From a virus, in IMG/VR virus record IMGVR_UViG_3300050138_000621, positions 64,001 to 128,000 of that record: 64,000 bases of DNA. The stretch is one strand, 5' to 3'. Shown one piece after another: positions 14,992-62,421 of the stretch. A model generated the notes under the pieces. That model made no database searches and had not been told where the DNA came from. It was given only the letters and a program-made list of their open reading frames with translations. The translations under genes were made by a program, and so were the position numbers. Every line of letters begins with the position of its first letter. The stretch's first letter is position 1.

Positions 14992-15004
14992 CCTATAGCG
15001 AACG
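14992..15004 (-). promoter_or_regulatory. CGTTCGCTATAGG motif
   Basis: Exact motif on the minus strand, 6 nt before the GTG of the remnant leader and 48 nt before the endonuclease VII ATG. It sits directly downstream of the strong hairpin 15016-15050. Confidence 0.7.
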
Positions 15005-15015
15005 CCGGACACAGC

Positions 15016-15050
15016 AGTGGCCGGTCGGTTTACAGGGCCGACCGGCCACT
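15016..15050 (-). terminator. 13-bp perfect hairpin after fibre gene
   Basis: Arms AGTGGCCGGTCGG and its exact complement are separated by a 9-nt loop. It lies 90 bp past the stop of the minus-strand gene 15141-15701 and just before the next promoter motif. No U-tract follows on either strand, so termination is inferred from strength and position. Confidence 0.55.
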
Positions 15051-15140
15051 GGAAAGCTAGGGGTTATTTTAAGCTACTGCTGCGGCACAATTGCCCCAAT
15101 TCGAGGGCGCCCTTCGGCCTCAGCCGACGTGCTTGGGACC

Positions 15141-15701
15141 TTAGCTCTGAGCGAGGACGAGGACCACGAGGGTGGAACCACTCAGGTCCGTGTTGGCCTG
15201 CTGGATCTGGTCGTTCACGGTCACGGTCGACTCGAAGTGAGCCGCCGCCGAGGTGTGGGTGGTGACATCGGACACCATGATGACCTTGTCGCCGACCTTG
15301 GCGCCGGTCGCCGTGATGTGGCTGGGGGTCACCGAGGAGTCCGTTCCCAGGGTGCAGAACGAGTGGAACGAGGACGCCGGGAGCTTCGCCTGACCCGTGA
15401 AGGTCGCGGTGCCGGTGACGGCCAAGTTGCGGCCCGCGGTGACGTCACGAGTCGCGACGACGTCGCGGCCCGAGGACACGTCTACCGTGGTCGACAGGGT
15501 GCCCACGACCGACTGATCGCCGGTGAGGGCGACGCCGTTCACGATCACTTTGCCGCCGAAGGTGACGTCGGTATTGAACGTCCACGTTCCGTCCTTGTCC
15601 GAGATCTTGCCGATGTCGATGCCACGACCGCCGAAGAGACGGGAGCCGAAGGACCAGACTTGGGGGTAACCGGGGGTGATTTTGGTGCGCGATCCAGCCA
15701 T
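15141..15701 (-). CDS. Fibre-like tail protein
   Basis: 186 residues starting MAGSRTKITPGY. The middle (GGRGIDIGKISDKDGTW, VTFGGKVIVNGVALTG) has the repeated short β-strand pattern of phage fibre shafts and trimeric tail-spike stems. The tail (FHSFCTLGTDSSV to LVVLVLAQS) is β-rich. There is no enzyme motif. It is the first gene of the left-hand structural block in the direction of transcription, next to the integrase. A virion role is inferred from composition and context. Confidence 0.6.
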   Translation of the reverse strand: MAGSRTKITPGYPQVWSFGSRLFGGRGIDIGKISDKDGTWTFNTDVTFGGKVIVNGVALTGDQSVVGTLSTTVDVSSGRDVVATRDVTAGRNLAVTGTATFTGQAKLPASSFHSFCTLGTDSSVTPSHITATGAKVGDKVIMVSDVTTHTSAAAHFESTVTVNDQIQQANTDLSGSTLVVLVLAQS

Positions 15702-15763
15702 TTGAATTCTCCTTGACGGTGTGGGTTCAGCCCCAGATCGGGGTCAAAGAGATGATTGGTGCG

Positions 15764-16990
15764 CTAGTTGGCCGGCAGCGTGTCCTCTGGCCCTTTGGTC
15801 CCCAAAGTCGTCGGAACCTCGATCTGGATGCGCCCGCGGTCGGCGGCGGTGAAGCGGCCCGGGAGCAGGTGGCTGTAGCGCTCGGTGGTCACGACCGAGC
15901 TGTGGCCCATAACCTCCTGGAGCTTCTCCAGGGTGCCTCCGCCGAGCACCCACTGGCTCGCGAACGTGTGCCGGGTAGCGCGGTACCAAATCATGGGCTC
16001 GATCTCCAACGTCGCCAGGACCTCGCGCAGCTCCTCGCCCATCCGGTGATCGCCCAGGAAACGTCGCCGAGGGCCCGTAGCCGAGCCGCCACGCGGCCCA
16101 AGGATGGGCGGGCACACTAAACCCACGCCGCCGGTGATCGCCCTATGCTTCTCCAGCAGAGGGTAGAGGGAGTCGAGGATGGGGACGATGCGGACCTCGC
16201 CGTCCTTGACCTTCGCGCGGCCGTCCGCGGTCAGCCGGGCGGCGACCTTCCCTTTGCGGCGCTGGACCTGCTCGCGGACCGCGATGGTGCGGGAGACCAG
16301 GTTGACGGTGGCCCAGTCGAGAGCGCGGACCTCTGACGTCCGGAGGCCGCCCAAGGCGCCGATTGCGTAGGCGATGGCGATGCTGGTGTGCTTCTTATAC
16401 AGGCCCTCGTAAACGCGATGGATGTCGTTCGGATCCTTGATGAACGGGACGTCCTTGGGGTCGTGGTCGGACTTGAGGAACTCGCGCCGAGTTTTCTTGG
16501 ACAGCATCCGCGTGGGGTTCATCTTCGCTTGACCGTCCTCCACCAGGTCCGAGTAGAGGGAGGAGAGGAGGGCCATGCAGAGTTTTACCGTGGCCTTGCC
16601 GAGGCCCTTGGTGCGGAGGGCGGCCATCGTCGTCTTGAGGACGGACACACCCACCTCGTTTGGTGTCAAATCCCCGACGAGCGGCTTCAAGTGATTGGTC
16701 CAGCGGTTGGAGTCGTCGTAATGAGATTCGTGGGCGGTGCGGGCCGCGAGCCAGGTAACGGCTAGCTGTGACAGGGTTTCGACGTCTGTCCGGCGACTCT
16801 CGCCGAGTCCGTATATGCCCTCCTGGACGCGCTTCGTAATCTCGGTGAGGAGACGCTTGGCGGTATCGGCGTCTGGCAGAGACTTGGTCCGACGCTTCCC
16901 ATCGACATCGTACCACTGGATCACAGCCCTATTAGCCCGGACCTGGATAGATCCAGCTCCATGAGGCCTCCGTCGCTTAGGTCTCGCCAT
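15764..16990 (-). CDS. int: Tyrosine-family site-specific integrase
   Basis: 408 residues, usual phage integrase length. The N-terminal ~60 residues form an arm-binding/AP2-like region (HGAGSIQVRANRAVIQWY); the core-binding SAM-like domain spans ~65-160. Catalytic residues: Arg in GGLRTSEVRALDW, RATRHTFASQW, GHSSVVTTERYSHLL with the Tyr nucleophile. The conserved HxxR reads RxxR, so the first His is replaced. It drives integration and excision, making the phage temperate. A variant CTATAG motif lies 9 nt upstream of the ATG. An attP could not be defined by eye. Confidence 0.93.
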   Translation of the reverse strand: MARPKRRRPHGAGSIQVRANRAVIQWYDVDGKRRTKSLPDADTAKRLLTEITKRVQEGIYGLGESRRTDVETLSQLAVTWLAARTAHESHYDDSNRWTNHLKPLVGDLTPNEVGVSVLKTTMAALRTKGLGKATVKLCMALLSSLYSDLVEDGQAKMNPTRMLSKKTRREFLKSDHDPKDVPFIKDPNDIHRVYEGLYKKHTSIAIAYAIGALGGLRTSEVRALDWATVNLVSRTIAVREQVQRRKGKVAARLTADGRAKVKDGEVRIVPILDSLYPLLEKHRAITGGVGLVCPPILGPRGGSATGPRRRFLGDHRMGEELREVLATLEIEPMIWYRATRHTFASQWVLGGGTLEKLQEVMGHSSVVTTERYSHLLPGRFTAADRGRIQIEVPTTLGTKGPEDTLPAN

Positions 16991-16999
16991 GACGTAGAA

Positions 17000-17011
17000 C
17001 TATAGCGGGCG
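17000..17011 (-). promoter_or_regulatory. Variant CTATAG motif before integrase
   Basis: Reads CGCCCGCTATAG on the minus strand, with CCC in place of TTC. Spacing to the integrase ATG is 9 nt, slightly longer than elsewhere. It also encodes the last codons (Arg-Pro-Leu-stop) of the HNH/AP2 gene. Confidence 0.5.
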
Positions 17012-17542
17012 GATTGCGGTAGAGCAACCCAATTCGACCTCGATCAAATCGGCAGGGGCTTGAAGTTCTGGAAAGTTGACCACAGCGAACTCCCCCCACG
17101 CTTCCAGGGCTGCCTTGTCGTACGCCTTGGCGGCCTCGATCTTGTCGGCGTAGTAGCCGAGGTGGCGAAGCTTGTTGTTTACCCTGATTCGGGCCGGCCA
17201 TTTGCCCAGGCGCTCGCACCAACCAACGCCCTTGTAGCCGCTGGTGTTATTGGCGAACCGGACCTTATTAGCATTGTTCCTGCCGTTCGGGTCGGGGCGC
17301 AGGTTGTCCCGCCGATTGTTCCGGCCGTCGCGGTCAATGTGGTCAGGCGGACCTACGATGCCCATTCTCCTGGCTATTTCTTGGTGGAGCCCGACGGTCT
17401 TCTGCTTGCCGTCGAACCTTGGAAGCTTGCGCCGGGCGTAAAACGTCTTTCCGCTTTTTACCGCATACCAATTGAACGCCGCCAGATCGGCGTCGACATC
17501 GTCGACATATGCAACTTGGCCTTTGGTGAGAGGAATCTCCAC
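17000..17542 (-). CDS. HNH homing endonuclease with AP2 domain
   Basis: 180 residues, GTG start 6 nt after CTATAG. Residues ~1-45 form the small β domain often found before HNH (MEIPLTKGQVAYVDDVDADL). The HNH core is GLHQEIARR, PPDHIDRDGRNNRRDNLRP. The C-terminal AP2 DNA-binding domain reads NTSGYKGVGWCERLGKW, HLGYYADKIEAAKAYD. This is the standard HNH-AP2 homing endonuclease of phages. The gene sits between integrase and a truncated paralogue and overlaps the integrase promoter motif at its 3' end. Confidence 0.92.
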   Translation of the reverse strand: MEIPLTKGQVAYVDDVDADLAAFNWYAVKSGKTFYARRKLPRFDGKQKTVGLHQEIARRMGIVGPPDHIDRDGRNNRRDNLRPDPNGRNNANKVRFANNTSGYKGVGWCERLGKWPARIRVNNKLRHLGYYADKIEAAKAYDKAALEAWGEFAVVNFPELQAPADLIEVELGCSTAIRPL

Positions 17543-17548
17543 ACTGGA

Positions 17549-17560
17549 CTATAGCGAACG
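17549..17560 (-). promoter_or_regulatory. CTATAG motif for HNH/AP2 gene
   Basis: CGTTCGCTATAG on the minus strand, 6 nt before the GTG at 17542. Read in the alternate frame of the upstream pseudogene it supplies Arg-Ser-Leu-stop. Confidence 0.7.
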
Positions 17561-17801: not shown

Positions 17802-17807
17802 CTCAAA

Positions 17808-17820
17808 TCTATAGCGAACG
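17808..17820 (-). promoter_or_regulatory. CTATAG motif, divergent pair (minus member)
   Basis: CGTTCGCTATAGA, 7 nt before the ATG at 17801. It forms a back-to-back pair with the plus-strand copy at 17849, separated by 28 bp. Confidence 0.7.
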
Positions 17821-17848: not shown

Positions 17849-17861
17849 CGTTCGCTATAGG
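17849..17861 (+). promoter_or_regulatory. CTATAG motif, divergent pair (plus member)
   Basis: CGTTCGCTATAGG, with CTATAG 7 nt before the ATG at 17868. Confidence 0.75.
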
Positions 17862-17867: not shown

Positions 17868-18575
17868 ATGAATCTCATCGCTGTGGTCTGTATGTTGGCC
17901 TGGATGCTCGGCATGGCCTCCGGGGTGGTGCTCGGTGGCTTCATCCACCTGTTACTGGTGGCAGCCGTCGTTCTCGTGCTCGTCCGACTGATAGATGGGG
18001 CGGGCTCGCCGCGGCCCGAGAAGAAGGTGAAGATCCAGTTCAAGGTCGACCCCGACGCCCTGGCGAAAGCGCAGCAGCAGATCAGAGACCTGCAGGATGC
18101 CCTCCGCTTCTACGTGGACCGCAGCGACGAGGTTGGCGAACAACTGGAGCTGGCAGGCGCTCGAATCGACATGCTGAGGCGTCACAGAACGGAGATCGTA
18201 GAGCGCGTGGAGGGCATCTTTCACATGGCCCGCTGGATCCAGGGCGACCGGGACACAGCCGAGGCCGAGGTCGTCCGGCTCAAGGAGATGGTCGAGCGCC
18301 TGCGAGGGGTTTGGTCGCAGACCGGCAAGATCGCCGCCCGCCGCCTCGGCGACCTCGCGAAGGCCAAACTAGAAATCGACCAGTTGACGGTCCAGATGGC
18401 CGGCGTCAGCGTGGCCGCCCTCGGCTGGTCGACCGAGACGGCAAAGCGGGGAGATTACGGCTGGTCGGTGCCGTACCAGGACGCGCTGAACCTGCGGCAG
18501 CGCTACGACAGGCTGCGAACGCTCGTGCACCCGGAGGTCGTCGAGGAGATCGAGGAGTCGCTGAGGGGGCAATGA
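17868..18575 (+). CDS. Membrane-anchored coiled-coil protein with DUF5670-like N-terminus
   Basis: 235 residues from ATG 17868. The first 45 residues (LIAVVCMLAWMLGM, GGFIHLLLVAAVVLVL) hold two hydrophobic segments in the pattern of the short Lmo0937/DUF5670 membrane family. The rest is a long Lys/Glu/Arg-rich coiled coil (residues ~60-170, e.g. LAKAQQQIRDLQDALRF), cytoplasmic by inference. Free-standing DUF5670 proteins have only ~50 residues, so this looks like a fusion. The next gene overlaps it by ATGA. It is the first plus-strand gene after the integrase block. Function unknown. Confidence 0.65.
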   Translation: MNLIAVVCMLAWMLGMASGVVLGGFIHLLLVAAVVLVLVRLIDGAGSPRPEKKVKIQFKVDPDALAKAQQQIRDLQDALRFYVDRSDEVGEQLELAGARIDMLRRHRTEIVERVEGIFHMARWIQGDRDTAEAEVVRLKEMVERLRGVWSQTGKIAARRLGDLAKAKLEIDQLTVQMAGVSVAALGWSTETAKRGDYGWSVPYQDALNLRQRYDRLRTLVHPEVVEEIEESLRGQ

Positions 18576-18919
18576 CCAAGGAGCAGGCGCGGATGAACGC
18601 GCTGGCCATCACTACCGTGATGGAGGCGATCCTCTCCATACCTTCGGAGCTGCAGGGGATGAGGGCCGAGATTGCCGAGCTGCGTCGCCAGATCTCAGTC
18701 CTGCAGGCGGTCCAGCCGCTCTCGATCGTCACTGTTCCAGAGGCCGCCGAACGCCTGGGAGTTACTGTCCGGACGGTAAGGCGCATGCTCAAGGAGGGGC
18801 GGCTGAAGTCGGTTCGTATCGGGAACCGGGTCCGGGTGGATTTGTCATCGGTTCAAGCGGCCCTTTTGATGACGGTCGACAGCGTTTTTGGTATTGACAG
18901 CAAAAGTGCGCCCGCGTAA
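18572..18919 (+). CDS. Excisionase-like MerR/HTH_17 DNA-binding protein
   Basis: 115 residues, ATGA overlap with the preceding gene. Residues ~20-45 are coiled coil (MRAEIAELRRQISVLQ). Residues ~52-100 form a winged-helix excisionase-type domain: TVPEAAERLGVTVRTVRRML, then GRLKSVRIGNRVRVD, the usual helix-turn-helix plus wing of HTH_17 proteins. Close to the integrase, so a recombination directionality factor or regulator is plausible. The last codons overlap a TTGACA-type promoter for the next gene. Confidence 0.8.
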   Translation: MTKEQARMNALAITTVMEAILSIPSELQGMRAEIAELRRQISVLQAVQPLSIVTVPEAAERLGVTVRTVRRMLKEGRLKSVRIGNRVRVDLSSVQAALLMTVDSVFGIDSKSAPA

Positions 18920-20005: not shown

Positions 20006-20337
20006 GAAACCTCGAAGACAGACCCCTGCACAAGGCAGTGGAGCGCACGATGGCTGGCTTCCGCGCCGCGGGCCTCAACGTACGTCCGGCTCTAGGCTCC
20101 GCCGTCAAGGCCTACATGGAGGCTGCCAATCACCCCGACAGCTTGGTCCGGGTGACGGCGACGGCCGAAGAAGAGATGGTTCTCTTCGACTCGCTCGTGA
20201 GCATGGACCGCGCCGGCCGCAACAAGATCGACTGGATGAAGACGGTCAAGTCGACGGACGAGCACCCCGAGTTGGAGTTGCTCATCGAGTTCAGGAACGG
20301 ATCGGGTATCGAGCTGGTGAGGCACCGTTCGCTATAG
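20002..20337 (+). CDS. Hypothetical protein ending in the promoter motif
   Basis: 111 residues, ATG overlapping the previous stop. Mixed helical sequence (HKAVERTMAGFRAAGLNV, VKSTDEHPELELLIEF) with no recognised domain. Its last codons, Arg-Ser-Leu-stop, are the CGTTCGCTATAG motif used by the next gene, so the C-terminus is dictated by the regulatory element. Confidence 0.65.
   Translation: MRNLEDRPLHKAVERTMAGFRAAGLNVRPALGSAVKAYMEAANHPDSLVRVTATAEEEMVLFDSLVSMDRAGRNKIDWMKTVKSTDEHPELELLIEFRNGSGIELVRHRSL
20326..20337 (+). promoter_or_regulatory. CTATAG motif
   Basis: CGTTCGCTATAG, 7 nt before ATG 20345. TAG doubles as the stop of the previous gene. Confidence 0.75.
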
Positions 20338-20792: not shown

Positions 20793-20926
20793 GGGTAGAG
20801 AAGCCGAGAGCCCAGCCCATGCGCCCGAAGTCCCTTCGCCTCGCTGTCCTTCCGGACAAGCGCAAGAACTGTTGCTGCACGCCCGCGACCTGCACCTGCC
20901 GAAAGCCCGCTGACCGTTCGCTATAG
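20789..20926 (+). CDS. Small Cys-rich basic peptide ending in RSL
   Basis: 45 residues from GTG 20789 (overlapping the previous stop), or 35 from ATG 20819. C-terminal part KNCCCTPATCTCRKP has six cysteines. The final Arg-Ser-Leu-stop is again encoded by the promoter motif. No family recognised. Confidence 0.4.
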   Translation: MRVEKPRAQPMRPKSLRLAVLPDKRKNCCCTPATCTCRKPADRSL

Positions 20927-21335: not shown

Positions 21336-21349
21336 CCGTTCGCTATAGG
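21336..21349 (+). promoter_or_regulatory. CTATAG motif
   Basis: CCGTTCGCTATAGG, 6 nt before ATG 21355. Confidence 0.75.
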
Positions 21350-22315: not shown

Positions 22316-22329
22316 CCGTTCGCTATAGG
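22316..22329 (+). promoter_or_regulatory. CTATAG motif
   Basis: CCGTTCGCTATAGG, 6 nt before ATG 22335. Confidence 0.75.
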
Positions 22330-23189: not shown

Positions 23190-23203
23190 CCTATAGCGAA
23201 CGG
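23190..23203 (-). promoter_or_regulatory. CTATAG motif
   Basis: CGTTCGCTATAGG on the minus strand, 7 nt before ATG 23183. Confidence 0.75.
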
Positions 23204-24923: not shown

Positions 24924-24937
24924 ACCTATAGCGAACC
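24924..24937 (-). promoter_or_regulatory. CTATAG motif
   Basis: GGTTCGCTATAGGT on the minus strand, 7 nt before ATG 24918. It ends the previous gene as Gly-Ser-Leu-stop. Confidence 0.75.
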
Positions 24938-26555: not shown

Positions 26556-26569
26556 CCTATAGCGAACGT
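26556..26569 (-). promoter_or_regulatory. CTATAG motif
   Basis: ACGTTCGCTATAGG on the minus strand, 6 nt before ATG 26550. Confidence 0.75.
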
Positions 26570-27306: not shown

Positions 27307-28347
27307 TCACCGTAGCTCCAGGGTTCGACCAGTATCTTTCGAGGCTGGTTTAGGCTCGGCCATTGGAGCCCCCGGCGAGGAGTCGTTCCTCGTCCGTTCC
27401 GCCACCGTCTTCTGTTTACCCAACGCCCTGATATTGTGAGCGGCGTTAGCGTCTCGGTGGTCGAAGTATCCGCAATCGCACCTGAATTTCTTGCCAGCCG
27501 GCTTATTGATCGTTCCGCACCTGGAACAGGCTCGGGACGTATAGGCTGGGTTGACGGGCAGTACAGGTATGCCGAGAATCGCAGCTTTGTACTCGATGAA
27601 AGATCGCAACTGGGCGAAGGCCCATTGCGATTTTTGTACGTACGCCCGGATTTTGGACTTGGCACCGTTCGGGTGCAAATCCTCCAGGGCAATAGCTGAG
27701 CGAGTGAGTTCGGCAATGTTGACGATTTGACGCGATACCTTGTGATTCATCTCTCGGGCGAGCTTTGCTTGCTTCCCGGAGACGTGCTTTGCTTTCTGGG
27801 TATGTCCTTTCGCTTGATGTTTTCGGCGCTGCTTACGGAAGTTGAACTTGATGGACCCGATATCGGGTCCGAGTCTGCGAACCTTGCCCTGGCCGTAAGC
27901 GATGGTCGCGATGTTGCCGCGGGTGTTAAAATCCACGCCGACGACATCGGTAGGAGTCTGGGCGAGGCCGGAAGCCGTCTCGTACTGGACATGTACGTAC
28001 CAGCGCCGATTACGCTTGATGAATTCGATCGCCAACACGCGGGCTACGGGCCGCTGGAACTGACAAGGAATGTTCGCCTTGAGGCAAGGCACATAGATAC
28101 CGCCAACAACCTGACGCACCTGCCGACCTCTGTCGGCGCAGATCGGCAACGTTACCCGCTTGATGGTTTTCGCCTTCGGGTACTTGCGGATCAAAGCCTT
28201 GGAGATTACTGATGGCAGCTCCGGGAAGTCTTTGGTGGAGTTGGCTCCAGCAACGATTTTGCGTACGGAACCACGGGCAATTTGGTACAATCGGTTCAAA
28301 TGGTTGACGATTTCGCCTCGAACCACGAACTTGCCCGTAAGGATCAC
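27307..28347 (-). CDS. tnpB: TnpB RNA-guided nuclease (IS605 OrfB)
   Basis: 346 residues from GTG 28347, 3 bp from the divergent tnpA start. RuvC-like Asp in DVVGVDFNTRGNIATIAYG, Glu in SAIALEDLHPNG and Asp in DHRDANAAHNIRALG, with the zinc finger CSRCGTINKP/FRCDCGY between them. N-terminal helical and basic regions (HQAKGHTQKAKHVSGK) match TnpB. All key residues are present, so it is probably active. TnpB cuts the vacated donor site using an RNA derived from its own 3' end, favouring retention of the IS. A longer upstream frame to 28626 overlaps tnpA and is unlikely. Confidence 0.9.
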   Translation of the reverse strand: MILTGKFVVRGEIVNHLNRLYQIARGSVRKIVAGANSTKDFPELPSVISKALIRKYPKAKTIKRVTLPICADRGRQVRQVVGGIYVPCLKANIPCQFQRPVARVLAIEFIKRNRRWYVHVQYETASGLAQTPTDVVGVDFNTRGNIATIAYGQGKVRRLGPDIGSIKFNFRKQRRKHQAKGHTQKAKHVSGKQAKLAREMNHKVSRQIVNIAELTRSAIALEDLHPNGAKSKIRAYVQKSQWAFAQLRSFIEYKAAILGIPVLPVNPAYTSRACSRCGTINKPAGKKFRCDCGYFDHRDANAAHNIRALGKQKTVAERTRNDSSPGAPMAEPKPASKDTGRTLELR

Positions 28348-28350
28348 TGC

Positions 28351-28725: not shown

Positions 28726-28738
28726 CCTATAGCGAACG
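28726..28738 (-). promoter_or_regulatory. CTATAG motif stranded behind the IS
   Basis: CGTTCGCTATAGG on the minus strand, pointing into the 3' end of tnpA. Its presumed target is the gene at 27006-27242. Confidence 0.7.
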
Positions 28739-31602: not shown

Positions 31603-31615
31603 CCTATAGCGAACG
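31603..31615 (-). promoter_or_regulatory. CTATAG motif
   Basis: CGTTCGCTATAGG on the minus strand, 7 nt before ATG 31596. TAG is the stop of the upstream gene. Confidence 0.75.
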
Positions 31616-43252: not shown

Positions 43253-43436
43253 CTCATGATTGCTTCTTGGTTACGCCAACTTACCCCCCCTCCCCCAATG
43301 ACATCGGTGATGGCCTTAGACATCAAACCCGAGATCGGTAATGCCACTCCGCGACACCGTCAGCCAGCATACTAATTTGATCGCGACTGCAAAAAAAGAC
43401 TAGACCTACATCAAAGACCAGGAGACACTCATCATC

Positions 43437-44316: not shown

Positions 44317-44329
44317 CGTTCGCTATAGG
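44317..44329 (+). promoter_or_regulatory. CTATAG motif
   Basis: CGTTCGCTATAGG, 6 nt before ATG 44335. First plus-strand copy after the motif-free 31.6-44.3 kb stretch. Confidence 0.75.
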
Positions 44330-46426: not shown

Positions 46427-46470
46427 CTGCCCATGATTGCGGCCTGGCTTTACTTCAAAGAACGGATGGG

Positions 46471-47357: not shown

Positions 47358-47380
47358 CTCCCCGAGATGATTGTGACCCG

Positions 47381-48724: not shown

Positions 48725-48737
48725 CCTATAGCGAACG
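48725..48737 (-). promoter_or_regulatory. CTATAG motif
   Basis: CGTTCGCTATAGG on the minus strand, 7 nt before ATG 48718. Supplies the RSL-stop of the previous gene. Confidence 0.75.
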
Positions 48738-49007: not shown

Positions 49008-49020
49008 TCTATAGCGAACG
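49008..49020 (-). promoter_or_regulatory. CTATAG motif
   Basis: CGTTCGCTATAGA on the minus strand, 7 nt before ATG 49001. An 11-bp CCCCCCGGGGG-type palindrome follows at 49022-49033. Confidence 0.7.
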
Positions 49021-49072
49021 GCCCCCCGGGGGACGCGCTATACGAGCAGCGAGTCGCAATCATCCCTGTGCG

Positions 49073-51314: not shown

Positions 51315-51327
51315 CCTATAGCGAACG
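51315..51327 (-). promoter_or_regulatory. CTATAG motif
   Basis: CGTTCGCTATAGG on the minus strand, 7 nt before ATG 51308. Supplies RSL-stop to the next gene upstream. Confidence 0.75.
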
Positions 51328-51519
51328 CCCGAGAGTGTGCGTCGCGCAGCACTCCTCGCTGCAGATCGGAGCCCCTCCCTTGGCCTTGGGCGACTGGTAG
51401 TCGATGAATCTCGTGAGGTACCCGCACTCCCAGCACGGATACCAGTCGGACACCACGAAGATGTCCTTCATCGGCTCCTGGAACGGCTCGGCGTCGGGGT
51501 ATTTGGCTGAGAACCTCAT
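51316..51519 (-). CDS. Zinc-ribbon partner of AAA+ ATPase
   Basis: 67 residues from ATG 51519, coupled by ATGA to the BCS1-like gene. Two Cys pairs, WYPCWECGYLTRF and PICSEECCATH, predict a zinc ribbon. Ends GRSL at the promoter motif. Translational coupling to the ATPase suggests a substrate or adaptor role (inference). Confidence 0.65.
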   Translation of the reverse strand: MRFSAKYPDAEPFQEPMKDIFVVSDWYPCWECGYLTRFIDYQSPKAKGGAPICSEECCATHTLGRSL

Positions 51520-52847
51520 TGCTTGTTGTCCCAGAGGAGCGCCACTGCCCGCCGCTTGCAGCGGCCGGTCAGGCCGCTGGGGCTCTCGGTCACCGGGGAG
51601 CTGTCCGCCATCGCCTTGGCCTCGATGTCGTCGCGGAGGATGCGCTTGCAAATCTTCAAGCGGCCCTCGTAGTCCAGCTCGGGGATCTCTATGATGACGT
51701 CGACGCGGCCAGAGCGTGTGGATTCGCCGTTCTCGTCGGGTCGACCGATCGCCTCGTCGATCTGGTCGATGTGGTTGGTGGTGATGAACAGCAGGCAGCC
51801 CGCGTTCCCCTGAATGCCGTCGATCGCGTTCAGGACTGTGGTGAAGTTCAGGGTGCCTGTCACGTTCTTGCGGCCATGGAAGACGGTGTCGAAGTCCTCG
51901 AAGAGAACGATTCGCTGGCCGAACTTCTCGGAGCCCTGCTTCCACGCCCTCAGGAATTGGGCATCGGACATGCCGGCGACGTTGATGATGACGACGGGGA
52001 TGTCCAGGTCGTGGGCGACGGCAGAGATCAAGCTCGTCTTGCCGGTCCCTGGCTTGCCGTGGAGCAGGTATCCGCGCTTGTACTCCAGCTCGGCGTCGAC
52101 GTACCACTGCCGGTTCTCCTTCCAGAAGCGAACGTCCTGGAAGAGCATGCGATGCGCGTCCGTGAACGACAGACGATGCGAGAACGGAGTCGCGTGAGGC
52201 GCTGGGTCCTCGGCGGGGTCGAAATTGACGGGCTCACCAGCATCCCTCCAGGCTGTGCTCGGCTCCGTAGATTTGAATTCGTGGTCGATCGAGATGCCGG
52301 TGCCGGCGGCGTCCGGGGAGATGGTGACGATCGAGAACGCGCGTTTACTGCGAGTCTCTTCCTCCTTGGCGAGATCGAGGAACTCCCCGGCGTCGGTGAG
52401 AAGGTCTTTCATGTTGACGGTCCCGTTGATGAAGCGCATCTGTGACCGCTTGACCATGTCCCCATCGGCATCCCGTGCAATTGGGGTGAGCAGGATGGGC
52501 GCGCCCTTGTAGAAGTAGAGGCTCAGGGAGTCGGCGACCTTCCTGTAGAAGATGTGCCGCGTCTTGCCGGTGGTGAACGTATGCGGCAGCAGGTCGTAGC
52601 AGTCACCGCCGACAGAATGAGTGCGCCCGGTTCGGCTCAAAAAGACGGAGACGGCTTCGGTGGTCTGGATGTCGTTCAGCTCGATGGACGTAATCACCAG
52701 GCTCCCAGCGACTCCCAGCGCCTTCTCTCCGATCTTCTTCGCGACGGCCCGAAGGGCTGTCATCAACGGGGAGGTCGCGACGAGGGCGAAGGCGATGCCG
52801 GCGGAGATGTAGGGGTGTCGGTGGATCTCGCGGAGGAGGGCATCCAT
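51516..52847 (-). CDS. BCS1-like AAA+ ATPase, membrane-anchored
   Basis: 443 residues from ATG 52847, 7 nt after CTATAG. N-terminal membrane segment PYISAGIAFALVATSPLM. A middle region (~60-230) corresponds to the BCS1-specific domain. AAA+ core: Walker A LLHGKPGTGKTSLISA, Walker B QRIVLFEDFDTVF, the BCS1-type LNAIDGIQGNAGCLLF, sensor-1 ITTNHIDQIDEA, and SGRVDVIIEI. Mitochondrial BCS1 moves a folded protein across a membrane; phage homologues are uncommon and unexplained. The zinc-ribbon gene after it is coupled. Confidence 0.87.
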   Translation of the reverse strand: MDALLREIHRHPYISAGIAFALVATSPLMTALRAVAKKIGEKALGVAGSLVITSIELNDIQTTEAVSVFLSRTGRTHSVGGDCYDLLPHTFTTGKTRHIFYRKVADSLSLYFYKGAPILLTPIARDADGDMVKRSQMRFINGTVNMKDLLTDAGEFLDLAKEEETRSKRAFSIVTISPDAAGTGISIDHEFKSTEPSTAWRDAGEPVNFDPAEDPAPHATPFSHRLSFTDAHRMLFQDVRFWKENRQWYVDAELEYKRGYLLHGKPGTGKTSLISAVAHDLDIPVVIINVAGMSDAQFLRAWKQGSEKFGQRIVLFEDFDTVFHGRKNVTGTLNFTTVLNAIDGIQGNAGCLLFITTNHIDQIDEAIGRPDENGESTRSGRVDVIIEIPELDYEGRLKICKRILRDDIEAKAMADSSPVTESPSGLTGRCKRRAVALLWDNKQ

Positions 52848-52852: not shown

Positions 52853-52866
52853 GTCTATAGCGAACG
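52853..52866 (-). promoter_or_regulatory. CTATAG motif
   Basis: CCGTTCGCTATAGA on the minus strand, 7 nt before ATG 52847. Faces the plus-strand copy at 52903, 36 bp away. Confidence 0.72.
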
Positions 52867-52902: not shown

Positions 52903-52915
52903 CGTTCGCTATAGG
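52903..52915 (+). promoter_or_regulatory. CTATAG motif
   Basis: CGTTCGCTATAGG, 7 nt before ATG 52922. Member of a divergent pair with 52853-52866. Confidence 0.75.
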
Positions 52916-53398: not shown

Positions 53399-53411
53399 CG
53401 TTCGCTATAGG
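53399..53411 (+). promoter_or_regulatory. CTATAG motif
   Basis: CGTTCGCTATAGG, 7 nt before ATG 53418. Confidence 0.75.
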
Positions 53412-53830: not shown

Positions 53831-54094
53831 ATGGAAAACGAAGAGATCACGACCGTGCTCACCCGCGAAGACCTCAAGGCCCGCGGCTGGACCGCACGCC
53901 AGATCCGCAAGCAGAAGCCCGACACCATCATCCGGGCGAAGCACCGCGGACGCCCGCGCTTCGGACACTCGCTCGTCAAAGTGCTGGCCGTCGAGGCCGC
54001 CATCGCCGAAGCCAAAGCGATCGTCGCTGCGTCCCGCGAGAAAACAGCCCCGATGGTCGTCGAGACCATCGCCCCGATCGCCGCGGTCGCCTGA
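53831..54094 (+). CDS. Small basic DNA-binding-like protein
   Basis: 87 residues from ATG 53831 (MENEEITTVLTREDLKARGW). Helical TARQIRKQKPDTIIRAKHRG and a basic middle, Ala-rich end. Could bind DNA. Its stop overlaps the Dam ATG, so the two are co-translated. Not recognised. Confidence 0.55.
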   Translation: MENEEITTVLTREDLKARGWTARQIRKQKPDTIIRAKHRGRPRFGHSLVKVLAVEAAIAEAKAIVAASREKTAPMVVETIAPIAAVA

Positions 54095-56067
54095 TGGCCA
54101 GACCATTTCTCAAGTGGGCAGGGGGAAAGACCCAGCTCTTGAAGGACCTTCTCGCCCGCGCTCCCTCTACTTACGGGACCTACCATGAGCCGTTTGTTGG
54201 AGCAGGGGCCCTTTTCTTCGCTTTGCGGCCCCAAGCCGCCTTCCTCGGCGACATGAACCATGAGCTGATCATCACCTATCGCTCGATCCAAGACGATGTC
54301 GATGGTCTGGTGTCTGAGCTGCGGTCGGACGGCTACGAAAACAGCGCGGAAATGTTCGCCGAGATCCGGGCACTGGCCCCGACTTTTGAGGTGGAGATTG
54401 CCGCCCGCATGATCTACCTCAACAAGACCTGCTTCACTCCCAGATCTCAGGTCCTTCGAGAGGACGAAACTACCGCCGACATCGAAACTGTCCGCGTTGG
54501 CGACAGACTATGGAACGGCCGGGTCGTCCACGAGGTCCTGCGGCAGCACTACAGCGGGATCGTGCGGCGGATCAAGGTCCAAGGAAACCCATGGACAATG
54601 TCTGTTACGGCAGACCATCCAGTTCTGTCCATAAAGGCACCCACCGGACGTCAAGAACGTCGCTCGGTCGAAGCTCTGCGCAGCGCCATGCGCCTGGTCT
54701 CATCTAGCGAGTTGAAAAAAGGGGACTACGTCTGCTTGCCCACGTCCGGGACGGCCGCTCGAATGATCGACTGGCACCGCTTTTGGCCCTCCGACGCCGA
54801 CTTCGGCCCCCAGGCCGAGAAGGTCCGTCTGTCCTCTGATGCCGGGGACGGAGACGTCGCCAGATTGCTTGGGTACTACGCCGCAGAAGGCAGCGCTTCG
54901 TACCAAGAGCGCCGCCCCGACGGTACCCGGGGGAATCTTCGTGGCCTCAGGTGGACCTTTGGCGAACACGAGCGTGACACCCACATCGCCGATCTAGATT
55001 CTATCTGCCAGCGATTGTTTGGAATCGCGCCGGCAGTGCGAAAGGGGGTTGGACGCAAATACTCGGTCGAGCTGAACTCAGTGCACGTAGCCAAGTTTGT
55101 GACGACCCTGGTGCCGGGACAATCGTGGGCCGAAGAGCCTTCCGAACGAAAGACAAAACGATTTCACCCCTGTTTGCTGACGGCCCCCGTTGACGTCCAG
55201 GTCGACTTGCTGCGGGGCTGGTACCGAGCCAGGCAAAACAGTACCGAACTTACGGGTACGTGCACCGTGCTCCCCATGGCGCGGCAGATATACCGAATGG
55301 CCCAGCGCTGCGGGCTCAAGCCCTCCTGGCACATCTCCCATCCCAAGGGCGCAACCAAGCATCTAGACGGCACGCCAGTCGACAATACGACCGCACACGT
55401 CAGACTCTCAGGAGAGGACGTTGCGGTGCTCGGGTTTCCGCTCCAACCGACCAGGAAGCGACGGCCCATTCAGAGAAGGGTTATCGACGGGTATTTGGTC
55501 GTCCGGGCGAGGGACATCGCCGACCTTGACTACGAGGGCGTCGTTTACAACATCGAGGTCGACGGAGACCACCTCATTTGCGTCGACGGAGTGGTGTCAC
55601 ATAATTGTTTCAACGGCTTGTACCGAGTCAATAAAAAGGGCCGATTCAATGCACCTTTTGGCCGGTACAAGAACCCGACCATCTGCGACGAGGTCAACCT
55701 GCGAGCTTGCAGCGCCGCCCTCCACGCAAACGTGCAGGTGAACCATGAGCACTTCACCGCGGTCGAAGGGCGCGCCAAGGAGGGCGACTTCGTTTACTTC
55801 GACCCGCCATACGCGCCGGTGACCGCCACCTCCAACTTCACCGCCTACACCGCTGGCGGCTTCGGCCTCCAGGAGCAGACCGACCTGCGGGATATGGCCC
55901 TTCGAATGAAGAAGGCTGGGGTCCAGGTTCTGCTGTCGAACTCGTCGGCTCCATTGGTGGAGGAGCTGTACGGAGCCGACTTCTGCCTCGAACCGGTCCA
56001 AGCCCGCCGCAGCATCAATGAATCTGGCGACAAGCGCGGCAAGGTCAAGGAGTACCTCATCCGATGA
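54094..56067 (+). CDS. dam: DNA adenine methylase (Dam-type) precursor with intein
   Basis: 657 residues, of which 265 remain after splicing, the normal Dam length. N-extein: KWAGGKTQLLKDLLARAP, the SAM motif FVGAGALFFAL, LGDMNHELI. C-extein: CFNGLYRVNKKGRFN, catalytic DPPYAP in FVYFDPPYAPVTATS, and LLSNSSAPLVEEL. The intein sits in the conserved NKT|CFNG site. Methylates adenine in a short site, probably to protect phage DNA. Overlaps the preceding and following genes. Confidence 0.93.
   Translation: MARPFLKWAGGKTQLLKDLLARAPSTYGTYHEPFVGAGALFFALRPQAAFLGDMNHELIITYRSIQDDVDGLVSELRSDGYENSAEMFAEIRALAPTFEVEIAARMIYLNKTCFTPRSQVLREDETTADIETVRVGDRLWNGRVVHEVLRQHYSGIVRRIKVQGNPWTMSVTADHPVLSIKAPTGRQERRSVEALRSAMRLVSSSELKKGDYVCLPTSGTAARMIDWHRFWPSDADFGPQAEKVRLSSDAGDGDVARLLGYYAAEGSASYQERRPDGTRGNLRGLRWTFGEHERDTHIADLDSICQRLFGIAPAVRKGVGRKYSVELNSVHVAKFVTTLVPGQSWAEEPSERKTKRFHPCLLTAPVDVQVDLLRGWYRARQNSTELTGTCTVLPMARQIYRMAQRCGLKPSWHISHPKGATKHLDGTPVDNTTAHVRLSGEDVAVLGFPLQPTRKRRPIQRRVIDGYLVVRARDIADLDYEGVVYNIEVDGDHLICVDGVVSHNCFNGLYRVNKKGRFNAPFGRYKNPTICDEVNLRACSAALHANVQVNHEHFTAVEGRAKEGDFVYFDPPYAPVTATSNFTAYTAGGFGLQEQTDLRDMALRMKKAGVQVLLSNSSAPLVEELYGADFCLEPVQARRSINESGDKRGKVKEYLIR
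54430..55605 (+). other. Intein with LAGLIDADG-type endonuclease domain
   Basis: 392 residues from Cys (CFTPRSQVLREDE) to Asn before the next Cys. Splicing blocks: N-terminal TADHPVLSI, and C-terminal GVVYNIEVDGDHLICVDG with VVSHN|C. Between them, LLGYYAAEGS and LLRGWYRARQN are the two dodecapeptide motifs of a homing endonuclease. The first keeps its acidic residue (Glu); the second lacks the usual Asp/Glu, so nuclease activity may be lost while splicing is intact. Confidence 0.88.
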
Positions 56068-57011: not shown

Positions 57012-57024
57012 CGTTCGCTATAGG
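57012..57024 (+). promoter_or_regulatory. CTATAG motif
   Basis: CGTTCGCTATAGG, 7 nt before ATG 57031. Confidence 0.75.
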
Positions 57025-59128: not shown

Positions 59129-60154
59129 ATGGGCGAGCTTCCTTTCCCCAAGAGCCTCCCCGAGTTCCAGAAGCTCTTTCCGGATGACGCGCACTGCGCC
59201 GACTACATGGAGCGCGTTCGCTGGCCGGACGGCTTTGTCTGCCCGAGCTGCGAGACCAAGGGCGAACCCGGACGCATCGCCACGCGTCCGCACGTGCTCC
59301 GCTGCAAGAAGTGCAAGAAAGAGGCGCGGTTGACTGCTGGGACTGTGATGCAGGACAGTCACACGCCGCTCCTGACGTGGTTCTGGGGCGCGTACCTCGT
59401 GGCCAGCCTCACGCCGGGCATGTCGGCCGTTCAGTTCCAGCGTCAACTTGGGCTCGGTCGCTACGAGACGGCATTCCAGATCCTCCACAAGCTTCGGGCT
59501 GGCATGGTGCGCCGCGACGTCGACATGATTGGCGGCGTCCACACCGTGGAGCTGGATGAGACCTGGGTCGGGGGCCGCACCCGTGGCGAGGGGCGAGGGT
59601 CCCACAACAAGACGCTGGTCGTGGGGGCTGTCGAGGTCCGCAAGCGGCAGGGGCCACGCCCTGGAGAGAACGTCTTTGGCGAGCAGAGCAAGGCTATTCC
59701 GCGACGCGGCGGGCGCTACGCGGGACGCCTCCGATTGGCCGTCGCCCCCGATCGCACGGCAAAGAGCTTGGTCGGCTTCGCCCGCATGGCCATCGAGCCA
59801 GGCTCCGACATCATTACGGACGATTGGGTGGCGTACGGGCAGCTCAAGAAACACGACTTCAAGCACCATCCGTTCGCGGAGAACGGAGACCCCAGCGTCG
59901 CGGAGGAGCACCTCCCGCTCATCCACCTTGTGTTCTCGAACCTCAAGGCGTGGTTGCTGGGCGTTCACCACGGCGTCGCGCCGCAGCATCTCCAGGCCTA
60001 CCTGAACGAGTTCACATTTCGTTTCAACCGCCGGTTCTTCCCCTTCACGTCGTTCCGGTCGCTGCTGGGCATCGGCGCCGATTCGGAGTCGGCCACCTAC
60101 GCCGAACTGTACTCGGGCGAGTGGGAACACCCGAGCTTCGTGGTGGAGGACTAA
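59129..60154 (+). CDS. IS1595-family transposase (ISXO2-like DDE)
   Basis: 341 residues. Zinc ribbon FVCPSCETKGEPG, RCKKCKKEARLT, helical GTVMQDSHTPLLTWFWGAYL, then the catalytic core: first Asp-Glu in HTVELDETWVGGRT, second Asp in GSDIITDDWVAYGQ, and SNLKAWLLGVHHGV with the His/Asn replacement typical of this family. Length is normal. No inverted repeats were found around it; it lies in line with neighbouring phage genes, so it could be domesticated. A 9-bp repeat flanks it. Confidence 0.88.
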   Translation: MGELPFPKSLPEFQKLFPDDAHCADYMERVRWPDGFVCPSCETKGEPGRIATRPHVLRCKKCKKEARLTAGTVMQDSHTPLLTWFWGAYLVASLTPGMSAVQFQRQLGLGRYETAFQILHKLRAGMVRRDVDMIGGVHTVELDETWVGGRTRGEGRGSHNKTLVVGAVEVRKRQGPRPGENVFGEQSKAIPRRGGRYAGRLRLAVAPDRTAKSLVGFARMAIEPGSDIITDDWVAYGQLKKHDFKHHPFAENGDPSVAEEHLPLIHLVFSNLKAWLLGVHHGVAPQHLQAYLNEFTFRFNRRFFPFTSFRSLLGIGADSESATYAELYSGEWEHPSFVVED

Positions 60155-60161: not shown

Positions 60162-60878
60162 GAACTTGGTGACGGCCTGGAGGGCCTGCGCTCGTTGCCA
60201 CAAGGGAGCGTCGCGGCGATCGTGTCGGACCTTCCGTCTGGAGAAACCCGCGCGGAGTTCGATGTAGCGCCCGACTTTGCAGTGTTCTGGCCCGCGGTAT
60301 GGCACGCGCTGCGTGACGACGGGAAGGCGATCTTGATGGCTTCGTCGCTGCGCTTCGCGGCGCGCCTACTGGAGTCCCAGAAAGCCCATTTTCGGCACGA
60401 TCTGATCTGGAGCAAGAGCCTCGCGACTGGCCACCTGAACGCGTCTAAGGCTCCTTTGCGAGCGCACGAATTCATTCTGGTTTTCTCCCGAGAGGTCGGG
60501 ACGTTTCATCCCCAAATGGTTCAAGGAGCCACACCAATCCATGCGGCGCGGCGAGCCTGTCATGGTGAGAACTACGGTCCCCAGACGAAGGCGGGGTACA
60601 GCCGCGCCGGGGCGACTGACAGATTCCCGACGTCGGTCCTTGAATTCGCCTCCGTTGGAACGAGCAGCAAGGCCAGGAAGCACCCGCAACAGAAACCTGA
60701 CCCGTTGCTGGCCTGGCTGATTCGGTCCTACTCCAATCCCGGTGAGCTGATCGTTGACCCGTACGCGGGCAGCGGTAGCACCGGCGACGCGGCTGCCGCG
60801 GAAGGCCGAACGTTTCGTGGATGGGATTCATCGCCGCGCTTTGGTGTGGATGCGTCACTTGCCAGGGGTTGTGGTTAG
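60156..60878 (+). CDS. DNA (N4-cytosine or N6-adenine) methyltransferase, beta class
   Basis: 240 residues from GTG 60156. Motif IV reads IVSDLPSGETRAEFD in place of the usual DPPY. Motif I is at the C-terminal end: IVDPYAGSGSTGDAAAAEGR, with LAWLIRSYSNPGEL before it. The order IV then I is the beta class. Target base not decidable. Second methylase in the region, 4 kb from Dam. GTG start overlaps nothing; 1 bp gap from the transposase stop. Confidence 0.85.
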   Translation: MVELGDGLEGLRSLPQGSVAAIVSDLPSGETRAEFDVAPDFAVFWPAVWHALRDDGKAILMASSLRFAARLLESQKAHFRHDLIWSKSLATGHLNASKAPLRAHEFILVFSREVGTFHPQMVQGATPIHAARRACHGENYGPQTKAGYSRAGATDRFPTSVLEFASVGTSSKARKHPQQKPDPLLAWLIRSYSNPGELIVDPYAGSGSTGDAAAAEGRTFRGWDSSPRFGVDASLARGCG

Positions 60879-61112
60879 GTGCATGATCCGGATAAGCATG
60901 GTTTCTACGAGCGGAACATGCGAGCCCCCGACTTCGTGCTCGTCGGGCTCATGGAGTGGACCCGGATGGAGCAATGGGCCGGGAGCTTCCCCTTGTCCGA
61001 GGCGCTTGCCAGCGGCCAATTCTTCGTGTGGACCGGCTCGGGCAAGGTCGAAGTCCGGCGCCACCCAACCTACTACTCGATGATCGCGCCGGTACTGGAG
61101 AAGATGCCATGA
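60879..61112 (+). CDS. Small hypothetical protein
   Basis: 77 residues from GTG 60879 (MHDPDKHGFYERNMRAPDFV). Centre LVGLMEWTRMEQWAGSFPLS. Adjacent to the methylase stop and coupled to the next gene by ATGA. Not recognised. Confidence 0.55.
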   Translation: MHDPDKHGFYERNMRAPDFVLVGLMEWTRMEQWAGSFPLSEALASGQFFVWTGSGKVEVRRHPTYYSMIAPVLEKMP

Positions 61113-61288
61113 AACTTCAAAGTGACTTTTCGGATCTCTTCGACATCGAGGCCGCCAAGGCCCACCCGGCCTACTCGGCCTTCGTCGAGGAGATGGAGGA
61201 CCGCTGCTACGGACGCGAGGCCCTCAACGATGCCTGGTGCTGGTTCAAGGCCGGCTGGAGCCGAGCCAAAGGGGAGAACCCCGAATGA
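61109..61288 (+). CDS. Small acidic helical protein
   Basis: 59 residues (MKLQSDFSDLFDIEAAKAHP), then SAFVEEMEDRCYGREALNDA, WCWFKAGWSR. Helical, aromatic end. ATGA overlaps on both sides. Not recognised. Confidence 0.55.
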   Translation: MKLQSDFSDLFDIEAAKAHPAYSAFVEEMEDRCYGREALNDAWCWFKAGWSRAKGENPE

Positions 61289-62043
61289 AGATCCAGCTCT
61301 GGTCCGATCTTCACCTGGAGTTCAACAACGACTGGGGAGGGCGGTTCCTCGACACGCACGGCCCGGCCGCGGAGACGCTGGTGCTCGCAGGCGACATCAC
61401 GAGTGCCGCCTTTCGTGAGCCTATCGACCTCGTATTCGCCAGCACCTCGATGCGCTGGAAACATGTTGTCTATGTGCCCGGAAACCACGAGTTCTTCAAG
61501 ACCTCGTTGACCGAGGGCTGGGCCAACATCAGGGCCGCGGCGCAGGATCGCCCCAACGTACACGTCCTCGACAACGAAGGCGTTACGTTGGACGGCGTGC
61601 GCTTCTTCGGCGGCACCGGCTGGTACCCCGAGATCTCGCAGCACTCCTTGGCTCCGTACGAGGCTGAACGCGACAGGGCCCGGCGCGGCATGTCCGACTT
61701 CCGGCTCATCCGTGACTTCGAGCCGGCGGTGTACATGAGCCGCAAGAAGCTCGCCGACTCCCTATACTCGACGGCCGAGAACCCGGACGTCGTGGTCACC
61801 CACCACCTACCTCACGGGCTCTGCGTGCTGCCCAAATACATCGGCGACCCGCAAAACTGCTTCTTCGTGTCAGACCTGGACGTCGAGACCGTGGGCGCCA
61901 AGCTCTGGCTCCACGGGCACACGCACGACCTGGTCGACGTCAAGATCGGCGACACGCGGGTGCTGGCAAACCCGCACGGCTATAAGCACGAGAGGATTGG
62001 GACACCGCCGTGGAACAGCGACTTCACGGTTGAGGTCCAATGA
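61285..62043 (+). CDS. Metallophosphoesterase
   Basis: 252 residues from ATG 61285. All metal-binding motifs are present: WSDLHLEF, LVLAGDITSA, VYVPGNHEFF, VVTHHLPHGL, WLHGHTHDLV. Calcineurin-like fold. Probably hydrolyses a phosphodiester or nucleotide; the substrate is unknown. Coupled to neighbours by ATGA. Confidence 0.92.
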   Translation: MKIQLWSDLHLEFNNDWGGRFLDTHGPAAETLVLAGDITSAAFREPIDLVFASTSMRWKHVVYVPGNHEFFKTSLTEGWANIRAAAQDRPNVHVLDNEGVTLDGVRFFGGTGWYPEISQHSLAPYEAERDRARRGMSDFRLIRDFEPAVYMSRKKLADSLYSTAENPDVVVTHHLPHGLCVLPKYIGDPQNCFFVSDLDVETVGAKLWLHGHTHDLVDVKIGDTRVLANPHGYKHERIGTPPWNSDFTVEVQ

Positions 62044-62420
62044 AGCCTTGCGAGTTCTGCGTCGAAAAGGTCTTGATCTTCGAGGCGCAGGCCCGTGGCG
62101 CCCAGGGTCTCTGTTCGGCGCCCATCCCAGATCCGCGGAACCCGAAGTGGATCCTGACGCGTTTGTTCGTTGTCGGTCCGGGCCAGACGTGGGATCACAG
62201 GCTCGAAGGTCCGCACTGGCGCGCCACCGTGTCTTGTCCGAGCCCGCAGAAATGCGTCTGCGACCGGCCGGCGCCGACCGGCAAGCAGGTCTGGGGCAAC
62301 AGCAGGGACGAGGCGTGGCCGCACAAATGTCCCGACTGCGGCTACCACGCAGCGGTCGTGGCCAACAGTGGCACTGTCCTCAAGTGCCGGGCACACGACT
62401 GCCGTCACCGTTCGCTATAG
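62040..62420 (+). CDS. Zinc-ribbon protein ending in RSL
   Basis: 126 residues from ATG 62040. Three Cys-rich sites: KPCEFCVEK, SCPSPQKCVCD, HKCPDCGYHAAVV/LKCRAHDC, a likely zinc ribbon. Ends CRHRSL, with the last codons in the promoter motif. Coupled to the phosphoesterase gene. Confidence 0.6.
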   Translation: MKPCEFCVEKVLIFEAQARGAQGLCSAPIPDPRNPKWILTRLFVVGPGQTWDHRLEGPHWRATVSCPSPQKCVCDRPAPTGKQVWGNSRDEAWPHKCPDCGYHAAVVANSGTVLKCRAHDCRHRSL

Positions 62421-62421
62421 G
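62409..62421 (+). promoter_or_regulatory. CTATAG motif
   Basis: CGTTCGCTATAGG, 6 nt before ATG 62427. Confidence 0.75.

Follow-up and report, generated by a model that had tools for sequence, protein, structure and literature searches.

Start-codon-linked sequence motifs as candidate -10-only promoters in a large relative of the myxobacterial phage Mx1

A repeated element in front of phage genes

The viral record IMGVR_UViG_3300050138_000621 is complete and represents a 168,646-b (168.6-kb) phage with terminal repeats; it is a large, Myxococcus-type phage related to the myxobacterial virus Mx1, and a megablast search against named phages gave no match. The window, the whole 64,000-nucleotide stretch analysed here, is part of this record, and carries 23 GCTATAG sites where 1.2 are expected from shuffles, lying in front of genes that include those for integrase-family, AP2-domain and AAA ATPase proteins. 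Sixteen of these are exact CGTTCGCTATAGG, six are copies with one mismatch, and the remaining one, at 17000-17011, is a variant in its 5' half. We refer to them as E elements, and list them here with the distance to the start codon that follows.

14993..15004, minus strand: E element CGTTCGCTATAG; GTG at 6 nt, opening only a 12-aa frame
17000..17011, minus strand: variant E element CGCCCGCTATAG; ATG (16990) at 9 nt, integrase-family gene 15764-16990
17549..17560, minus strand: E element; GTG 17542 at 6 nt, AP2-domain protein 17000-17542
17809..17820, minus strand: E element; ATG 17801 at 7 nt, divergent pair with 17849
17849..17860, plus strand: E element; ATG 17868 at 7 nt
20326..20337, plus strand: E element; ATG 20345 at 7 nt
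20915..20926, plus strand: E element; ATG 20934 at 7 nt
21337..21348, plus strand: E element; ATG 21355 at 6 nt
22317..22328, plus strand: E element; ATG at 6 nt (19-aa frame) and ATG 22342 at 13 nt (61-aa ORF)
23191..23202, minus strand: E element; ATG 23183 at 7 nt
24926..24937, minus strand: E element, variant GGTTCGCTATAG; ATG 24918 at 7 nt
26557..26568, minus strand: E element; ATG 26550 at 6 nt
28727..28738, minus strand: orphan E element with no start codon; an IS200-like transposase ORF (28282-28725, plus strand) stops one base short of it
31604..31615, minus strand: E element; ATG 31596 at 7 nt, 213-aa protein with a weak DnaJ match
44317..44328, plus strand: E element; ATG 44335 at 6 nt
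48726..48737, minus strand: E element; ATG 48718 at 7 nt
49009..49020, minus strand: E element; ATG 49001 at 7 nt
51316..51327, minus strand: E element; ATG 51308 at 7 nt
52855..52866, minus strand: E element; ATG 52847 at 7 nt, AAA ATPase 51516-52847, divergent pair with 52903
52903..52914, plus strand: E element; ATG 52922 at 7 nt
53399..53410, plus strand: E element; ATG 53418 at 7 nt
57012..57023, plus strand: E element; ATG 57031 at 7 nt
62409..62420, plus strand: E element; ATG 62427 at 6 nt

We note that the 12-aa frame following 14993..15004 starts like the AP2-domain gene at 17542, and may be a decayed copy of it. The site orthologous to 17000..17011 in two relatives is GGTTCGCTATAG, with the 9-nt spacing kept.

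A scan of the full phage, which the initial annotation had proposed, finds 54 GCTATAG sites and 50 exact copies of CGTTCGCTATAG, 25 on each strand, with none of the reversed pattern. Together with four related contigs the phage provides 132 motif copies, a sample that takes in orthologous sites so that its counts are not fully independent; five other viral contigs have one copy apiece. That annotation had described a 13-mer in about 24 copies, always facing a gene start. The 23 window sites agree with the copy number, but the invariant part is the 12-mer CGTTCGCTATAG, its 13th base being G, A or T, and a gene start is faced by about 90% of the window sites but by only about 74% over the five genomes.

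Spacing, conservation and the probable site of initiation

The spacing between element and start codon is strikingly fixed. An ATG or GTG lies exactly 6 or 7 nt past 21 of the 23 window sites, two of these opening only the 12- and 19-aa frames listed above; the other two sites are the integrase variant and the orphan. With an ORF of at least 40 aa required, 19 of the 23 sites remain locked at 6-7 nt (about 0.6 expected), against a mean of 0.64 and a maximum of 5 when the sites are shifted by 10-300 nt (2000 trials) and a mean of 0.63 and a maximum of 5 at random places. Over the whole phage 34 of 54 sites are locked, compared with a mean of 1.3 (maximum 7) after shifting. The 6-7 nt spacing first reported thus stands far above shifted controls, and is enriched under the randomisation that had been named as its check. 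In the five records, counting from CTATAG, 72 of the 132 copies have a spacing of 7 nt, 19 of 6 nt and seven of 8 nt.

The exact 12-mer is kept in 119 of the 132 copies; the G of CTATAG is nearly invariant (128/132) and the following base mostly a purine, the 13th base being A or T in about one third of copies. Among 58 matched promoter pairs the 12 motif positions are 93-100% identical, whereas most upstream positions are 22-48% identical. No upstream block is conserved across the 132 copies apart from a G-rich triplet adjoining the motif, and no -35-like box is present in the diverged upstream flanks, in agreement with the earlier remark that none was visible.

Evidence as to where transcription begins comes from the 34 copies that have no start codon at the locked distance. 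A pyrimidine-purine (YR) step is found at offset 6/7 in 23 of these 34, whereas elsewhere the mean is about 8 and the maximum 15. Since the YR initiator is kept where there is no start codon to maintain it, transcription from E elements probably starts on the A of ATG, about 7 nt beyond the G of CTATAG, giving a leaderless mRNA. With this A as +1, TATAG[G/A] spans -12 to -7, and CGTTCGC covers -19 to -13, where an extended -10 element would lie. Relative to TANNNT, T-12 and A-11 are present in the E class, whereas the T at -7 that is usual for sigma-70 -10 elements is replaced by G/A. A -10-like element ending 6-7 nt before the start codon, a mark of sigma-type promoters of leaderless genes, is present.

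The translation signals are consistent with this interpretation. SD-like (Shine-Dalgarno) sequences precede only two of the 34 locked E genes, but 86 of 168 other genes (51%) and three of five genes with a distant E element; some E copies lie 27-46 nt upstream of genes with their own SD. The proposal that downstream genes have no Shine-Dalgarno is therefore borne out for the locked genes.

A second motif and a sigma-like protein

A second motif, CAATCAT-N6-ATG, which the initial annotation missed, marks virion genes. There are 83 copies of CAATCAT, 29 of them with a start codon exactly 6 nt further on, and none of the seven locked genes of this T class has an SD-like sequence. The two motifs partition the genes, E elements accompanying non-structural and T elements structural genes. 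Eight T elements in the window are given below.

1228..1234, minus strand: T element CAATCAT; GTG 1221 at 6 nt, endonuclease VII-like gene 439-1221
4156..4162, minus strand: T element; ATG 4143 at 12 nt with GGAG between, gene 3349-4143 amid tail genes
11563..11569, minus strand: T element; ATG 11554 at 8 nt, gene 10922-11554
14061..14067, minus strand: T element; GTG 14053 at 7 nt, start of a baseplate assembly protein
43256..43262, minus strand: T element; GTG 43249 at 6 nt, 226-aa ORF
46433..46439, minus strand: T element; GTG 46426 at 6 nt, 196-aa ORF
47367..47373, minus strand: T element; ATG 47357 at 9 nt, 293-aa ORF
49057..49063, plus strand: T element; ATG 49073 at 9 nt, 270-aa ORF

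Compared with TANNNT, AATCAT has A-11 and T-7. No YR initiator is seen at unlocked CAATCAT sites, and the +1 position is thus less certain for this class. A leaderless regulon spanning the whole phage had been suggested; the prediction of leaderless or nearly leaderless messages over a regulon is supported, but because CAATCAT covers the structural genes the E regulon is not that of the whole phage.

A search of the rest of the genome for an RNA polymerase or a phage sigma factor had been suggested. Pfam or PHROGs scans covering essentially all proteins of 110 aa or more that the complete phage encodes identify neither a single-subunit nor a multisubunit RNA polymerase; a dedicated PF00940 search was also negative, though its control set was silent and the result proves little alone. 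Large unassigned proteins of 854, 665, 678 and 581 aa show no similarity to polymerases, the 854-aa protein resembling a tape measure protein. A sigma-70-like protein of 346 aa, shared with Mx1, is encoded at phage coordinates 29067-30107, outside the window, in a block that opens with a putative E promoter. It matches TIGR02937 with an E value of 1e-5, single-sequence scans giving sigma matches below family cut-offs, and a five-sequence profile aligns across region 2 with structurally characterised primary sigma factors (E 1.5e-8), the match stopping at residue 374 of the 423 in Thermus SigA. The protein is thus predicted to contain region 2, which binds core RNA polymerase and the -10 element, whereas region 4, the reader of the -35 box, is absent, all five homologues ending where it begins. 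AlphaFold models it poorly, with a mean pLDDT of 54. A motif search of two more distant contigs that carry the sigma-like gene yielded nothing convincing. Within the window, a helix-turn-helix protein (18572-18919) has a weak Sigma70_r4_2 match, and is excisionase/MerR-like rather than a sigma factor.

Interpretation and relation to known systems

We consider it likely that E and T elements are -10-only phage promoters, that E messages are leaderless, and that host core RNA polymerase is reprogrammed by phage factors. Judged from their sequences, both elements would act as promoters. CGTTCGCTATAG would be a phage-specific, -10-only promoter whose RNA begins with the start codon itself, at its first base; the messages would then be leaderless and need no SD. 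Its targets would be genes for replication, nucleotide and NAD metabolism, GroEL and Clp protease, along with many small genes, and we name the class early/middle because these are non-structural; CAATCAT, at -13 to -7 and placed like E, would be a second, late promoter serving mostly virion genes. This early and late timing is suggested by gene content. Both motifs are most likely read by the host core enzyme, and the 346-aa sigma-like protein is the best candidate reader of the late class. There is one sigma-like gene for two motifs, and the E motif may be read either by this same protein or by a host sigma that a phage helper assists.

CTATAG[G/A] corresponds to the -5 to +2 part of T7-class promoters, and this resemblance, together with the near-invariant G and the purine after it, could indicate a single-subunit phage polymerase of T7/SP6 type starting on that G, with leaders of 7-8 nt. 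Pfam/PHROGs scans of the complete phage show no such polymerase, the initiator signal falls on the A of ATG, and neither the YR signal at offset 6/7 nor a fixed short leader lacking an SD would be explained; moreover, CAATCAT is spaced similarly to ATG yet does not resemble T7 promoters. We regard this reading as very improbable, and the phage sigma or -10-type option raised beside it in the initial annotation fits better. Many-copy short asymmetric repeats are also known as the stoperators of cluster A phages, and the elements might be repressor or activator sites near gene starts, with promoters elsewhere. Stoperators, however, are not locked to start codons to within a single base, the 30 nt upstream contain no other conserved promoter signal, and both motifs occupy the register expected of a -10 element. 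We regard this reading too as very improbable.

Cluster A stoperators are mentioned in PMC3203893, which also describes the start-associated sequences (SAS) of cluster K mycobacteriophages, a 13-bp asymmetric repeat 3-7 nt before starts of non-structural genes only and first proposed to act in translation. By analogy, the E motif could be a ribosome- or protein-binding site on mRNA, in keeping with its location directly before start codons and with the AGG of TATAGG at about SD distance. The SAS sequence, GGGATAGGAGCCC, has an SD core, whereas CGTTCGCTATAG differs from that consensus and has no match to the anti-SD; the SAS phages are unrelated siphophages, and the passages on SAS describe neither an initiator nor a second late class. 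The variable 13th base, the copies 27-46 nt upstream of SD-bearing genes, the persistence of the YR initiator without a start codon, and divergent back-to-back pairs typical of promoters likewise make a translational role improbable.

Finally, a host sigma could read the E motif without any phage factor. In Deinococcus-Thermus, leaderless mRNA with no RBS arises where a -10 element lies some 6-7 bp ahead of the start codon (PMC12340547), and E-class genes need to be read before phage factors build up. Those elements are cellular, of TANNNT form and used by the housekeeping sigma, whereas strict conservation of a 12-base phage element (119/132) is unlike host promoters. The motif is absent from Mx1, and genome contigs, among the matches listed, have scattered or dispersed-repeat copies only, one of them in a myxobacterial MAG; matches in two bacterial genomes, BMS3Bbin14 and M_MetaBat.46, are dispersed repeats and do not form a regulon. 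Recognition by the host alone is likewise very improbable.

The late promoters of T4 are -10-only and are read by gp55, a phage sigma lacking region 4. The promoter design favoured here, with a candidate region-4-less reader, is similar, although the T4 late motif TATAAATA differs and T4 late mRNAs generally have SD leaders. Most middle and late mRNAs of Thermus phage phiYS40 are reported to be leaderless (PMC3594737), and middle/late promoters of P23-45 belong to an extended -10 class less dependent on -35 contacts (PMC7403470). The leaderless mRNAs and -10-type promoters predicted in our phage are features shared with the Thermus phages, which differ in infecting another host phylum, while here there are two fixed-sequence motifs without a TG extension. 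It is a tentative, though by no means negligible, possibility that this phage, outside Deinococcus-Thermus, relies largely on leaderless mRNAs through two start-fused, phage-specific, -10-only classes switched by a region-4-less, -35-independent sigma family, perhaps with a phage factor biasing host ribosomes towards leaderless messages. If so, it would provide a clean, genome-readable case at the sequence level of a large phage beyond Thermus hosts using such messages, and the motifs would locate, with single-base accuracy, where transcription starts and which start codon is used, allowing annotation to be corrected.

Mx1 has a similar genome size and has a gene set and the sigma-like protein (35-36%) in common with our phage; it differs in having no CGTTCGCTATAG and in possessing another start-locked element, AGATCAA, at about -23. 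A late promoter in Mx1 also follows as a prediction from the motifs; since this phage is in culture and infects the model bacterium Myxococcus xanthus, leaderless translation and a region-4-less phage sigma would be testable in a laboratory system. In Mx1, CAATCTT-N6-ATG, which resembles the CAATCAT class, precedes the prohead protease, baseplate and other genes, and is found before the protein at 121405, the homologue of the baseplate assembly protein that starts at GTG 14053.

A start-locked element and its conservation

The heptamer GCTATAG occurs 23 times in the window against 1.2 expected, and the 13-mer that contains it is present in 16 exact copies plus six with one change. An ATG or GTG lies 6-7 nt past the motif end at 21 of the 23 sites, which bears out the initial annotation of a repeated element at a fixed distance from start codons. 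Because our custom gene caller scored starts close to the motif more favorably, this lock was tested on bare open reading frames rather than on the gene table. When only ORFs of 40 aa or more are counted, 19 of 23 window sites are locked, whereas shifted sites give a mean of 0.64; in the whole phage the count is 34 of 54, against 1.3 (maximum 7 in 2000).

The parent record is 168,646 bases long, the window being its bases 64001-128000, and direct repeats of 127 bases at its two termini (1-127 and 168520-168646, both beyond the window) indicate that it is probably a complete genome of ~168.5 kb. Its genes are of the contractile-tail type (terminase, portal, sheath, baseplate), and it also encodes a Pol III alpha-type DNA polymerase with an intein, GroEL, Clp protease, SbcC and nicotinamide phosphoribosyltransferase (NAMPT). 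Two proteins encoded beyond the window, at phage bases 10527-13601 and 35833-39588, carry intein signatures: the terminase large subunit and the DNA polymerase III alpha-like protein. A 24-kb stretch of the phage has no DNA-level match to any named phage; many of the phage proteins match those of Myxococcus phage Mx1 at ~22-50% identity. Mx1, which infects M. xanthus, is a myovirus of 169.6 kb (PMC10720576), and the host of the phage studied here is by inference a myxobacterium or a relative.

Relatives were sought by scanning viral contigs with the pattern CGTTCGCTATAG-N7-ATG, where CGTTCGCTATAG is the 12-mer E element. Four contigs have many copies (31, 20, 14 and 5) and another five have one apiece; the four are in large part collinear with the phage at ~66-92% DNA identity. 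The phage and these four contigs, five genomes in all, hold 132 E copies, 119 with the exact 12-mer, a total that includes orthologous sites and is thus not one of fully independent copies. In a comparison of 58 matched promoter pairs, identity is 93-100% at the 12 motif positions and 22-48% at most upstream positions. In line with the initial annotation of the window, there is no -35-like block upstream in the five genomes, and just three G-rich positions adjoin the motif.

Where transcription would start

The simplest reading of these sequences is that the E motif is a putative promoter with RNA beginning at the start codon, because an initiator-like step is kept at most unlocked copies and locked genes almost lack a Shine-Dalgarno (SD) sequence. 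An ATG or GTG lies 6-8 nt downstream of 98 E copies in the five genomes (72 at 7, 19 at 6 and 7 at 8). Among the remaining 34, a pyrimidine-purine step stands at offset 6/7 in 23, against ~8 on average and 15 at most at other offsets, and GATCA is often kept at copies without a locked start; the step is what an initiator would leave if +1 were the A of ATG in locked copies. With +1 so placed, TATAG[G/A] falls at -12 to -7, the site of the sigma-70 -10 element. At several of the 34 the start codon comes 9-13 nt on, leaving a short leader, and at others an SD-like sequence accompanies a gene that lies 27-46 nt downstream. In the table from the motif-favoring caller, SD sequences precede 2 of 34 locked genes against 86 of 168 others, in keeping with the annotated lack of room for them in genes downstream of the motif.

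Middle and late mRNAs of Thermus phage phiYS40 are reported to be leaderless (PMC3594737), and -10 motifs have been shown 6-7 bp before ORFs in Deinococcus (PMC12340547); start-associated 13-mers of unproven function are found in cluster K mycobacteriophages (PMC3203893). A near-identical leader of ~35 bases, agatcagtaacagcttcacgcccttgaatgggac, follows three unlocked E elements in two contigs (G003 33856, G003 7467 and G006 17546) and is possibly a shared regulatory leader.

A putative late class and a candidate sigma factor

A second word, CAATCAT, has 83 copies across the five genomes, and its reverse has 3. A start codon lies exactly 6 nt past it in 29 of the 83 copies, placing AATCAT at -12 to -7; no initiator was seen at late-class sites without a locked start. 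Genes after CGTTCGCTATAG include those for helicase, Pol III, GroEL, Clp, dUTPase, dNMP kinase and NAMPT, and among those after CAATCAT are genes for prohead protease, tail tube, baseplate and tail proteins, the portal block and a few endonuclease genes. The late class is probably older than the early class, judging from the motifs of Mx1, since there CGTTCGCTATAG is absent and without counterpart and CAATCTT stands exactly 6 nt upstream of an ATG at five places, including prohead protease and baseplate genes (AATCTT is enriched at -12, p 3e-6). A different word is locked to start codons in Mx1: AGATCA at -23 (p 4e-13), also seen as (GT/TT)AGATCAAC ~18 nt before ATG, which mostly fronts small minus-strand genes.

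A search beyond the window, as the initial annotation had proposed, found no RNA polymerase in Pfam and PHROGs scans of essentially all phage proteins of 110 aa or more. A sigma-like protein of 346 aa (phage coordinates 29067-30107) matches sigma-70 family models, and its Mx1 homologue is annotated 'putative sigma factor'. A profile built with five homologues aligns to primary sigma factors at E 1.5e-8, covering regions 2 and 3 and the opening residues of region 4; the match stops at residue 374 of 423 in Thermus SigA, where every homologue ends. The predicted structure was too poor for use. A -35 box would go unrecognized by a sigma that lacks region 4, which fits -10-only promoters. T4 gp55 is likewise a sigma factor without region 4 that uses -10-only promoters. 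The sigma-like gene comes after a helicase gene with its own putative E promoter (27126). Transcription of the E class would thus supply the protein, and the protein would in turn switch on the late class, an order that we infer. None of the open-access papers searched describes the combination seen here in Mx1-like phages, two start-fused classes together with a truncated sigma family.

Putative mobile elements and AP2-domain genes

Features of the window and phage:
Window 27307-28626, minus strand: TnpB/Cas12f1-like protein, part of an insertion-sequence-like unit at 27307-28725
Window 28282-28725, plus strand: IS200-type Y1 transposase, same unit
Window 59129-60154: IS1595-type transposase gene (zinc ribbon and DDE domain)
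Window 17000-17542; phage 53882-54382, 138208-138759 and 166038-166544: AP2-domain family genes, each with its own E element and GTG start

The arrangement of the AP2-domain genes suggests that they are possibly mobile, taking the promoter along. The IS200-type transposase ORF ends one base short of an orphan E element (28727-28738).
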